64,000 nucleotides of DNA from Rhodoglobus sp. (lineage in GTDB: Bacteria; Actinomycetota; Actinomycetes; Actinomycetales; Microbacteriaceae). How positions within the stretch are numbered: position 1 is the first letter of the stretch; each line of letters starts with the position of its first letter. The notes beneath the pieces are model-generated. The model was given only the letters and a program-made list of their open reading frames with translations. It was not told where the DNA came from and did no database searches. Shown here piece by piece: positions 17,630-50,307 of this stretch. Position numbers and translations under genes: made by a program. The stretch spans positions 1 through 64,000 of the forward strand of contig JAODAQ010000016.1 of NCBI GenBank assembly GCA_025463515.1, given 5' to 3'.

Positions 17630-19845
17630 CGCGCCCGGACCTGCGGCTGGCGATTCCCGCGGTGGCCGGCTGGATCGCAACGGCAGTGGTGATCGGCGTT
17701 CCAGCAGCGGCGCTTCCGGTCGCCCTCGGCGGATGGCTCGTGGCTGGGGTACTCGCGGTGCTGCGGCCGCGCATCGCCCTCGTGCTTCTCGCGGTGGGGC
17801 TGTGCTGCACCTCGGTGGCGATGCACCAGGGGAGTAGACAACCCGAATCACTGCTCGAAGCAGCTACTGCGCATCGCAGTGTTTCCGTGGTGCTGAGCGC
17901 CACACAGACAGTGCTGCCGGGCAGTGATTCATTCGAAGCAGACCTTGTCGAGGCCGACGGCGAGGGGATGTCTGTGCCGGTGCTCGTGTTCGGGGGCGCC
18001 CCGGTGGAGCGGCTGGGAATCGGAGGGCGGTTGGCGTTCACGGGCTCTCTCGCAACGACGGAGCCCGGTGACGACCGGGCGTTCCTGCTCTTTCCCGACG
18101 GCGTGCCCGAGGTGGTGGGCGCGCCGCCCTGGCAGCTGGAGTGGGCGAACGGGCTGCGTGCACGGTTCCTCGCGGCGGCGACCGCGCTCCCGGGCGAGGG
18201 AGGCGACCTGCTCGCCGGGCTCGCCATTGGCGACACGAGCGCCGTCGGTCCTGAGCTCGACGCGGCGATGACGGCGTCGTCCCTCACCCATCTGACCGCG
18301 GTGTCGGGAGCGAACTGCGCGGTGGTGATCGGGCTCGTCATGCTGGCCGGTGCGGCGCTCGGCGTGCCGCGCGGCGTGCGGATCGCGGCATCCGGCGCTG
18401 TCCTCGTCGCGTTCGTCGTCCTCGTGACACCGGAGCCGAGCGTGCTGCGGGCGGCCGTGATGGCCGCGCTCGTGCTTGCGGCCCTCGCCAGCGGGCGGCC
18501 GCTGCAGGGGCTGCCGATCCTGGCCCTCGCGACGATCGGGCTGCTCGTGGCAGACCCGTGGCTCGCCCGCAGCTTCGGGTTCGTGCTGTCGGTGCTCGCG
18601 ACCGCGGGGCTGCTGCTCTTCGCCTCGCCGATCGCGCGCGCCTTGGAGCGCTGGCTGCCGCGGTGGCTCGCCCTCGTGATCGCGGTGCCCTTGGCCGCGC
18701 AGCTCTCCTGCCAGCCCGTGATCATCATGCTCAATGCGTCGATCCCGACGTACGGCGTCGTCGCGAACATGCTTGCCGAGCCCGCGGCCCCCGTCGCGAC
18801 AGTCGTGGGCCTTGCGGCGTGCGTCGCGCTCGTACTCGTGCCGCCGGTGGGCGAGCTGCTGTGCGCGGTCGCGTGGCTGCCGTCCGCCTGGATTGCGGCG
18901 GTGGCGAGGCTTTTCGCGGGCGCTCCGTTCGCCCAGCTCCCGTGGCCAGCAGACCTGCCCGGGGTGCTACTCGCCATCGCGGCGAGTGCGCTCGCGATCT
19001 TCGCCCTCCGGTGGCGCTGGGCTCGTGCTGGGCTGCTCGTCGCCGTGGTCCTGTACGCGGGCGCCGCCGGAGGGTTGCGGGTCGCTCAGCAGTGGGGGCG
19101 GCCCGGCGACTGGGAGATCGCGGGGTGCGAGATCGGCCAGGGCGACGCGTTCCTCGTGCGCAGCGGCGACCAGACGATGCTCGTCGACACGGGCCCCGAC
19201 CCCGAGCGGCTGCGCGAGTGCCTCTCCGACCTCGGGATCGAGCGCCTCGACCTCGTGGTGCTCACCCACTGGGACCTCGACCACATCGGCGGGGTCGAGG
19301 CGGTCGTCGGGCGCGCGGACCGAGTTCTGGTGGGCCCTGCCGATGGCGACTCCGCGCAGCTGGTCGCCCGCCTCCTCGGGGGCGGCGCGGTCGTCGAGCG
19401 CGCCCACGAGGGGGTGTCCGGCGTTCTCGGCGCGCTCGAGTGGGAGGTGCTGTGGCCGCCGCCACGCCTGGTCGGAGTCGAGCCAGGCAACGAGGCGAGC
19501 CTCGTGGTGAGGGTCGACTGCGCGGCCGGATGCCTCAGCGCCCTCTTCCTCGGAGACCTCGGCGAGGGCGCCCAGAGCCGCCTGCCGCCCGTGGGGCACG
19601 TCGACGTGGTGAAGGTCGCGCACCACGGCTCGTCCGACCAGTCCGAGGGGCTGTACCTCGCGCTGGGCGCCACGGTCGGGCTCATCGGCGTCGGCGCGGA
19701 CAACGGGTACGGGCATCCCACGCAGCGACTGCTCGACATCCTGGCGAGCGCGGGAACCGTCCCGGTGCGCACCGATGACGACGGCCTCATCCTGGTGTCG
19801 CCGGGGGAGCAGGACGGCGCCGTGAGTGTCTGGACCGAGCGGTAG
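17626..19845 (+). CDS. comEC: ComEC/Rec2 family DNA uptake channel protein
   Basis: The 739-residue protein has N-terminal transmembrane helices and then a short OB-like region. The competence domain follows (LLAGLAIGDTSAVGPELDAAMTASSLTHLTAVSGANCAV, then several helices). A C-terminal metallo-beta-lactamase domain has VVLTHWDLDHIGGVE near residue 545 and KVAHHGSSDQSEG. All three ComEC parts are present. It translocates single-stranded DNA across the membrane in competent bacteria. ATG 17626 overlaps the comEA stop. Its own TAG stop lies inside the hexamer proposed as the holA -10 element. Confidence 0.93.
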   Translation: MTRPDLRLAIPAVAGWIATAVVIGVPAAALPVALGGWLVAGVLAVLRPRIALVLLAVGLCCTSVAMHQGSRQPESLLEAATAHRSVSVVLSATQTVLPGSDSFEADLVEADGEGMSVPVLVFGGAPVERLGIGGRLAFTGSLATTEPGDDRAFLLFPDGVPEVVGAPPWQLEWANGLRARFLAAATALPGEGGDLLAGLAIGDTSAVGPELDAAMTASSLTHLTAVSGANCAVVIGLVMLAGAALGVPRGVRIAASGAVLVAFVVLVTPEPSVLRAAVMAALVLAALASGRPLQGLPILALATIGLLVADPWLARSFGFVLSVLATAGLLLFASPIARALERWLPRWLALVIAVPLAAQLSCQPVIIMLNASIPTYGVVANMLAEPAAPVATVVGLAACVALVLVPPVGELLCAVAWLPSAWIAAVARLFAGAPFAQLPWPADLPGVLLAIAASALAIFALRWRWARAGLLVAVVLYAGAAGGLRVAQQWGRPGDWEIAGCEIGQGDAFLVRSGDQTMLVDTGPDPERLRECLSDLGIERLDLVVLTHWDLDHIGGVEAVVGRADRVLVGPADGDSAQLVARLLGGGAVVERAHEGVSGVLGALEWEVLWPPPRLVGVEPGNEASLVVRVDCAAGCLSALFLGDLGEGAQSRLPPVGHVDVVKVAHHGSSDQSEGLYLALGATVGLIGVGADNGYGHPTQRLLDILASAGTVPVRTDDDGLILVSPGEQDGAVSVWTER

Positions 19846-20850: not shown

Positions 20851-20853
20851 GCC

Positions 20854-20929
20854 GGTTGAGTAGGGCGCTCTAGCGCCCGTATCGAAACCCGATCTGGTTT
20901 CGATACGGCCCTAGCGGGCCTACTCAACC
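20854..20929. repeat. Inverted repeat family A, double copy (GGTTGAGTAG...GTATCGAAACC)
   Basis: GGTTGAGTAG...GTATCGAAACC at 20854-20889 is followed by an inverted copy GGTTTCGATACGG...CTACTCAACC at 20896-20929, with 6 nt between them. It forms a very long hairpin between the convergent holA and rpsT genes. A single copy of the same element is at 50276-50307. Confidence 0.88.
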
Positions 20930-20941
20930 CGCCCCTAACGA

Positions 20942-21370: not shown

Positions 21371-21382
21371 TAGCCTGAGTCT
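21371..21382 (+). promoter_or_regulatory. Candidate -10 (TAGCCT) for leaderless aminotransferase gene
   Basis: TAGCCT at 21371-21376 followed by 6 nt and GTG at 21383. Confidence 0.5.
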
Positions 21383-22521
21383 GTGCCCCGCCTAGCGTCC
21401 CACATCCTGACCGTTCCCGGGAGCGGCATCCGTCGCATCCATGAGATCGCGATCCGCCTCGACGACGTGATCTCCCTGGCCGTGGGCGAGCCGGATGTCG
21501 CGGTGGCCCCGCACATCGCTGCGGCGGCGAAGCGCGCCTGGGACGACGACGACACGAACTACACCGCGAACGGCGGCATTCCGGCGCTCCGACAGGCGAT
21601 CGTGGAGAAGCTCGCGCGCGACAACCGGGTGCACGTCGACACCGAGCAGGTCTGGGTGACGATCGGCGCGACCCAGGCGCTGCACCAGCGATGGCCATCA
21701 CCCTCGACCCGGGCGACGAGGTGCTGCTGCCCGATCCCGGGTACACGACGTTCACCATGAACGCCCGGATGCTGGACGCCGTCCCCGTGCCGTACCCCCT
21801 CCACCCCGGGGCGGGCTTCCTCCCGGATGTCACGGAGCTCGAGCGGCTCGTCACCCCGCGCACGCGCGTGCTGATCCTCAATTCGCCGTCGAACCCGCTC
21901 GGCACGGTTATCCCCGAGGCGCTGCAGCGGGAGCTGCTCGCGTTCGCGGAGCGGCACGACCTCTGGATCATCAGCGACGAGGTCTACGAGGCCTTCACCT
22001 GGGGCGAGCCGCACGTGAGCATCGCGAGCCTCGACGAAAGCGACCGGGTGTTCTCCGTGTTCTCGCTGTCGAAGACCTACGCGATGACGGGCATCCGTAT
22101 CGGCTACCTCGTCACCCCGGTGGGAATGGCCGACACCATGCGCACGGTGCAGGAGGCGTCGATCAGCTGCGCTCCGCAGCCGGGGCAGTATGCGGCGCTG
22201 GCGGCGATCGAGGGTCCGCAGGACGCGGTGGCCGCCGCCCGCGAGCACTACCGCGAGAACCTCGCGGCCGCGACCGCGCTGCTCGAGAGCCGGGGCATCC
22301 GGTACCTCGTGCCCGGAGGCACGTTCTACCTCTGGATCGACCTGGGCCACGCCACGGGCGGCGACGTCGCGGGCTGGGCGGAGGGGTTCCTGCTCGAGAG
22401 GCGCGTGTCGATCGCGCCGGGCAGCGCATTCGGGCGCTCCGGCGAGGGCTGGATCCGGGTGAACCTCGCCACGAGCCAGGCCGAACTGCTCGAGGGACTC
22501 GGACGGCTTCCCGCCCCGTAG
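21383..22521 (+). pseudogene. PLP-dependent aminotransferase class I/II, disrupted by a one-base frameshift
   Basis: The N-terminal part (21383 on) reads VISLAVGEPDVAVAPHIAAA and TNYTANGGIPALRQAI, up to GATQALHQ at 21688. The rest continues in another frame from about 21691 with MAITLDPGDEVLLPDPGYTT. Next come LILNSPSNPLGTV, ISDEVYEAFTWGE and the PLP lysine block FSLSKTYAMTGIRIGYL. Adding one G to CACCAGCGATG (21683-21693) would give CAC CAG GCG ATG and restore a 379-residue aminotransferase. The two halves are otherwise intact with normal codon use, so the lesion is recent or a sequence error. Substrate unknown; aspartate-aminotransferase-like. Confidence 0.88.
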
Positions 22522-23852: not shown

Positions 23853-25598
23853 ATGTCACCGCGCGCAACGACGGCCCTGCAGCCTGCCTCGACCGACCCC
23901 GCGTTCATTCGCAACTTCTGCATCATCGCGCACATCGACCACGGCAAGTCGACCCTCGCAGACCGCATGCTCGGCATCACCGGCGTCGTCTCCGACCGCG
24001 ACATGCGCGCGCAGTACCTCGACCGCATGGACATCGAGCGCGAGCGCGGCATCACGATCAAGAGCCAGGCCGTGCGCATGCCCTGGTCCGACGGCTCGCA
24101 GACCTACGCGCTCAACATGATCGACACCCCCGGGCACGTCGACTTCACCTACGAGGTCTCGCGCTCGCTCGCGGCCTGCGAGGGCGCGATCCTGCTCGTC
24201 GACGCGGCGCAGGGCATCGAGGCCCAGACTCTGGCGAACCTCTACCTCGCCCTCGAGAACGACCTCACGATCATCCCCGTGCTCAACAAGATCGACCTTC
24301 CGGCGGCCGACCCCGAGAAGTACGCCAAGGAGCTGGCGAGCCTGATCGGCGGCAGGCCCGAGGACGTGCTGCGCGTGAGCGGCAAGACCGGCGTTGGCGT
24401 GCCCGAGCTGCTCGACCGCGTGGTCGAGCTCATCCCGGCACCCAAGGGCGACCCGGATGCCCCGTCCCGCGCGATGATCTTCGACTCCGTGTACGACTCC
24501 TACCGCGGCGTCATCACGTACGTGCGAATGATCGACGGAAAGCTCACCGCCCGCGAGCGCATCCAGATGATGTCGACGAAGGCCGTGCACGAGCTGCTGG
24601 AGATCGGCGTCTCCAACCCCGAGCCCACGCCCACCAAGGGCCTCGGCGTCGGCGAGGTCGGCTATCTGATCACGGGCGTGAAGGACGTGCGGCAGTCGAA
24701 GGTCGGCGACACGGTCACCAACGCCCAGAAGCCCTCGACGAAGGCACTGCCGGGCTACACCGACCCGAAGCCCATGGTGTTCTCGGGCCTGTACCCGATC
24801 GACGGCAGCGACTACCCCGTGCTGCGCGAGGCCCTCGACAAGCTCAAGCTCTCGGATGCGTCGCTCAACTACGAGCCCGAGACATCCGTCGCCCTCGGTT
24901 TCGGGTTCCGCTGCGGCTTCCTCGGCCTCCTGCACCTCGAGATCGTCACGGAGCGCCTCGAGCGCGAGTTCGGCCTCGACCTCATCTCGACCGCGCCCTC
25001 GGTGACCTACGAGGTCACCACCGAGGACAAGAAGCAGTACACGGTCACGAACCCGTCGGAGTTCCCGTCGGGCACGAAGATCGCCAGTGTCACAGAGCCG
25101 ATGGTTCGCGCGGGCATTCTCGCCCCCAAGGACTACGTCGGCACGATCATGGAGCTGTGCCAGTCGCGCCGCGGCACCCTCATCGGCATGGACTACCTCG
25201 GCGAAGACCGGGTGGAGATCAAGTACAACATTCCGCTCGGCGAGATCGTCTTCGACTTCTTCGACCAGCTGAAGAGCAAGACCGCGGGCTACGCGAGCCT
25301 CGACTACGAGCCCTCCGGCGACCAGGAGGCCGACCTCGTGAAGGTCGACATCCTGCTGCAGGGCGAGGCCGTCGATGCGTTCAGCGCGATCGTGCACCGC
25401 GACAAGGCCTACGCCTACGGCGTGCTCATGACCGAGCGCCTCAAGAAGCTCATTCCGCGCCAGCAGTTCGAGGTGCCCATCCAGGCGGCGATCGGCGCGC
25501 GCATCATCGCCCGCGAGAGCATCTCCGCGATGCGCAAGGACGTGCTTGCCAAGTGCTACGGCGGTGACATCACCCGCAAGCGCAAGCTCCTCGAGTAG
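23853..25598 (+). CDS. lepA: Elongation factor 4 (LepA), truncated by an in-frame amber codon
   Basis: The 581-residue product has the LepA GTPase domain ([16 protein letters not shown] near residue 25, [18 protein letters not shown]), domains II and III, the EF-G-like V domain and the start of the LepA-specific C-terminal domain. EF4 is a ribosome-associated GTPase that can back-translocate stalled ribosomes. The frame stops at TAG 25596-25598 directly after [12 protein letters not shown]. In LepA proteins a Lys normally follows here, then QKEGKKRMK. The expected tail is encoded in the same frame after the stop (see 25599-25709). The start is ATG 23853, with GACAAT 7 nt upstream. Confidence 0.95.
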
Positions 25599-25709
25599 CA
25601 GAAGGAGGGCAAGAAGCGCATGAAGATGGTGGGCCGCGTGGAGGTTCCGCAGGAGGCGTTCGTTGCTGCGCTCACCGGCGATGTCGAGGCCGCGAAGAAG
25701 GTCAAGTAG
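25599..25709 (+). other. Conserved lepA C-terminal codons downstream of the amber codon
   Basis: In frame with lepA, after TAG 25596-25598, this stretch encodes [20 protein letters not shown] and a further 16 residues, then a TAG stop at 25707-25709. The first part is the canonical LepA C-terminus. The stretch has no start of its own and normal coding bias. A single A-to-T change (AAG to TAG) explains the break. It could be a true mutation, a readthrough site or a sequence error. Confidence 0.9.

Positions 25710-48466: not shown

Positions 48467-50307
<1,841 letters not shown>

Follow-up and report, generated by a model that had tools for sequence, protein, structure and literature searches.

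A single-base amber codon in the conserved C-terminus of an otherwise normal lepA from a Rhodoglobus assembly

The lepA gene of the Rhodoglobus sp. window analysed here (the whole stretch of 64,000 nucleotides) is interrupted by an in-frame amber codon shortly before its native end. Very probably this codon is neither programmed nor recoded but a lone one-base lesion that turns lysine into amber in a gene that is normal elsewhere. Among the sequences compared, no other assembly has the stop, which lies one base from a lysine codon, and the lesion is of an ordinary kind. The reading frame opens with the ATG at 23853 and runs to ...TRKRKLLE, directly past which stands the TAG, as the first-pass annotation had placed it. 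The same frame then continues for exactly 36 residues, the 20 and further 16 that had been described, to a second, native TAG at 25707–25709 (Table 1).

Both sides of the stop are recognizably LepA. The portion before the stop matches TIGR01393 over profile positions 3–566 of 595, above the family cut-off of 533.9 bits, and the portion after it matches positions 568–593 (E 5.3e-9), so that the position of the stop alone is skipped. The Pfam LepA_C domain (PF06421) is divided in the same manner, with profile positions 2–80 of 107 before the stop and 82–106 beyond it; the open frame consequently contains no complete LepA_C domain. These matches agree with the earlier claim that the second TAG is the canonical LepA ending. 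Before the stop, nothing is missing from the GTPase core, the EF-G-like domains or the first part of LepA_C, all of which are highly conserved, and the G-domain motif idtpghvdf, aligned in four PDB chains, includes the DTPGH of LepA, which we take to hold the catalytic histidine (H81 in E. coli). The gene thus resembles the LepA/EF4 family in its core, its EF-G-like domains, the start of LepA_C and the tail beyond the stop, and differs from it in an open frame that reaches no further than profile position 566, its stop being found in none of the 106 other copies. No second intact lepA was found in the genome, where the three other search matches were partial and 32–40% identical.

Table 1. Coordinates of lepA, its amber codon and the other features discussed (window positions unless a contig of the same assembly is named).
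Feature	Position	Strand	Basis or remark
lepA open frame	23853–25598	+	ORF list; TIGR01393 904.9 bits, profile 3–566/595; sole lepA match in genome
In-frame amber TAG	25596–25598	+	Lys in each of the other 106 LepA sequences of the alignment
Rest of lepA frame: 36 LepA-tail residues, then native TAG	25599–25709	+	Reading frame; TIGR01393 and LepA_C matches
PLP-dependent aminotransferase, one-base gap near 21688	21374–22521	+	Alignment to four congeners
prfA (RF1) copy 1	contig C15, 1935–3002		
prfA (RF1) copy 2	contig C20, 93–1154		
Ser/Thr kinase in-frame TAG	contig C56, base 146 from end		Clustered mismatches

The site of the stop was followed through an alignment of 107 LepA sequences, comprising the present one, those of 26 genomes of the same genus and 80 actinobacterial loci (the best 80 of 589 from named records). 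The position is a lysine in 106 of the 107 and a stop only in the present assembly. At the codon level the counts are AAG 105, AAA 1 and TAG 1, in keeping with the single base change from AAG that had been proposed. Given that every other aligned sequence has lysine here, the stop is more than a chance observation. The first-pass annotation had recommended comparing lepA in sister strains, and none of the 26 congeners ends at RKRKLLE; the LepA C-terminus is present in all 27 genomes of the genus, the present one included. In a wider family sample, 248 of 249 genomes (247 besides our own) have a lepA match, and the check for stops covers 149 of these 247 (150 matches listed with our own, by our own count), four of them congeners. 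We considered whether relatives have the same stop and rejected this, as the six flagged family sequences among the 149 matches listed, and the one flagged congener (G003), were flagged only for their native ends; no stop at the site was found among the 26 congeners or the best 80 of 589 actinobacterial loci.

The tail beyond the stop has the appearance of coding sequence under selection. Over its first 29 codons, the counts of synonymous and amino-acid changes are 9 and 0 against L006 (G016), 4 and 0 against L007 (G007), 8 and 0 against L008 (G024), 9 and 1 against L009 (G021), and 8 and 1 against L010 (G020); for L009 only this tail comparison, which is in register, was used, as a gap puts the lepA core comparisons out of register. 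By lepA DNA identity the nearest of eight relatives are G007 (91.4%) and G024 (89.7%). Since the tail has diverged from these two only synonymously, it was under constraint for most of the period after these lineages separated, and the earlier description of a tail still intact past the stop holds. Across the last 517 lepA codons, the TAG is the only private change of this sequence at columns invariant in the rest of the alignment (n=107), against a mean of 0.39 such changes per sequence. The sequence comparisons are compatible with a change of recent date, and also with an organism that never underwent it. An established pseudogene was rejected, with one private change, the stop itself, at otherwise invariant columns of these 517 codons and a lesion shared by none of the 26 congeners.

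The first-pass annotation had left three explanations standing: a recent change, a codon that is read through, or a base-calling error. The first and the last survive our analysis; read-through does not fare well. A suppressor or near-cognate tRNA decoding the TAG would yield full-length LepA, or two isoforms, and this reading draws on the coding constraint retained by the tail and on the sequence context, the next codon being CAG. A stop followed by C can be a leaky context. Set against this, the genome encodes RF1, scoring above its family cut-off, and the search for a suppressor tRNA gene that the annotation had recommended came out negative: none of the 42 tRNA genes found with the RF00005 model, all typed by ARAGORN, has a CTA anticodon, in a set that is incomplete (Trp, Gly-tcc and Thr-tgt are missing). 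TAG is moreover the commonest terminal stop, with 61 cases against 41 TGA and 13 TAA among 115 scored stops, which may include some shadow frames (from 136 frames accepted on three contigs of the assembly). As the native stop of lepA is itself TAG, suppression would be costly. No stimulatory RNA fold was found in the 108 nt 3' of the stop, whose fold is weaker than that of most shuffled versions (z 1.25; 181 of the 200 shuffles matched or exceeded its stability), and the only other in-frame stop judged credible in a scan of three contigs sits in contig-end noise. On the strength of RF1, the tRNA anticodons, TAG usage and the fold we rejected recoding or suppression, and we regard read-through of the codon as very unlikely. 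The variant in which a real amber codon is partly read through, so that one gene would supply a LepA with the regulatory C-terminal sub-domain and another that lacks it, is extremely unlikely. As a separate observation, ARAGORN reported a 92-nt tRNA-Arg (ccg) at window positions 18894–18985 that is absent from the 42 RF00005 matches and is probably a false positive.

We then come to whether the isolated lesion exists in the organism. If it does not, the TAG would be a consensus error, or a base of a minor population fixed by assembling a mixed sample, in what is apparently a metagenome bin, and the living organism would have an intact lepA; to this reading we give about an even chance. The assembly, with 78 contigs totalling 3.32 Mb, a completeness of 95.39% and a contamination of 4%, lends it some credence, as do two RF1 genes that are 96% identical to each other. 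In each of three relatives the C20 copy has a single close match (94–95%) and one distant match (37–40%), and C20 is a contig of 4256 bases with a GC content of 0.675 against about 0.70. The presence of two such genes here, against one close match per relative, suggests that the bin may be of mixed origin. The TAG in the C56 kinase, which lies amid several non-conservative mismatches in a conserved stretch, resembles erroneous bases and looks like a contig-end error. A second single-base lesion, the gap in the aminotransferase gene, lies 3.9 kb from the lepA stop and was seen against G021, G017, G022 and G026 (an alignment was obtained for these four of the eight relatives); the 276-residue C-terminal piece of this protein matched aminotransferase models at no more than 216.9 bits, under the cut-off of 415 for the best-scoring model. 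Single-base nonsense and frameshift lesions occur in draft and metagenome assemblies, and the lepA stop resembles them in affecting one base, in one assembly, with intact sequence downstream and further lesions of one base elsewhere in that assembly, and differs in that it is not proven to be an error. Our search of the literature for premature stops in metagenome assemblies found no match.

Other observations weigh against an error. The contig with the lepA stop is 79 kb long, the stop is internal to it and odd changes do not cluster around it; the gap in the aminotransferase gene may mark a genuine pseudogene. Proteins on the lepA contig show 44 private changes in 7124 columns (22 genes), or 6.2 per 1000, with no contig-wide excess relative to the eight relatives (4.7–32.4 per 1000; G007 12.2, G016 10.8 and G024 4.7, the last on 1283 columns), a test that would miss a single isolated error. 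With a rate this low, a generally noisy contig is not supported as the source of the stop. Nor is the assembly consistently worse than that of G007 in automatic lesion scans, which returned 38 candidates against 13 in one scan and 12 against 17 in another; candidates other than lepA, the aminotransferase and the C56 kinase were put down, by judgement, to shadow frames or gene boundaries. Two candidates were aligned by hand, the C56 kinase and a site on contig C65 near 52,110, and the latter was rejected as a lesion because it proved to be two adjacent genes.

Alternatively, the TAG may be a real and recent nonsense mutation in the strain, which would tolerate a truncated and probably impaired LepA since lepA is dispensable under many conditions. 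We hold this to be a serious possibility, though short of probable; the division between it and an assembly error is our own inference. In its favour, the excerpted text of an E. coli study reports no obvious growth defect on deletion of lepA alone (PMC4245954), and the tail, whose divergence from G007 and G024 is purely synonymous, agrees with an event that took place long after these lineages separated. Against it, no stop occurs at this site in the 26 congeners, the best 80 of 589 loci or the family matches listed, and loss of the tail is therefore rare.

If the TAG is real, RF1 would end translation there, and the product would be a LepA of 581 residues comprising the GTPase core and the EF-G-like domains. 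It would lack 37 C-terminal residues, counting the stop position and the 36 beyond it; these belong to the C-terminal sub-domain, which regulates GTPase activity stimulated by the ribosome. Such a protein would probably be impaired. Counted on the printed alignments, the stop corresponds to position 567 in chain 3cb4_D (599 residues) and to position 576 in chain 5imq_B (610 residues), and solved LepA chains from distant bacteria can be aligned over most of what is lost. The closest experimental counterpart is the delta-G555 variant of E. coli EF4 (De Laurentiis and Wieden 2015, PMC4339808). In the excerpted text of that study, the last 44 residues, after G555, form a sub-domain whose removal left kcat on 70S ribosomes 4-fold lower and KM 10- to 100-fold higher; nucleotide binding and intrinsic GTPase activity were intact, and ribosome binding seemed reduced. 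Like delta-G555, the lepA stop removes most of this sub-domain; in contrast to it, the cut falls about 11 residues later and results from one base, not from design. Excerpts from the second E. coli study describe a LepA lacking its CTD (residues 487–594) that did not complement synthetic phenotypes (PMC4245954). Reasoning from these truncation and deletion results, we infer that truncation at this stop would probably impair LepA without killing the cell.

A different outcome, in which the shortened protein works as an adapted LepA that dispenses with the regulatory C-terminal sub-domain, could appeal to the retention of nucleotide binding and intrinsic GTPase activity by E. coli truncations, which can also form ribosome complexes according to the same excerpts (PMC4339808). 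However, the short form is common to no relative among the congeners, the 80 best loci or the family matches listed, and the lost residues are mostly alignable to the distant solved chains. The excerpted E. coli results point the same way, the 44-residue deletion having impaired ribosome-stimulated GTPase activity and seemingly ribosome binding (PMC4339808), and the CTD-less protein, a larger deletion, having failed to complement (PMC4245954). We thus find an adapted short LepA highly improbable, and return to an isolated lesion in an otherwise normal gene.

As it stands, the stop matters little beyond a warning: whoever annotates this assembly will find LepA shortened. Should the TAG be real, the strain would offer a naturally truncated EF4 with which the role of the C-terminal sub-domain could be studied.

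Elsewhere in the window, a palindromic element, GGTTGAGTAG ... CGTATCGAAACC, occurs at 20851–20932 and 50273–50307. It is also found on contig C65 of the same assembly and has many dispersed copies in G024 (tens of short matches), and it looks like a REP-type repeat.
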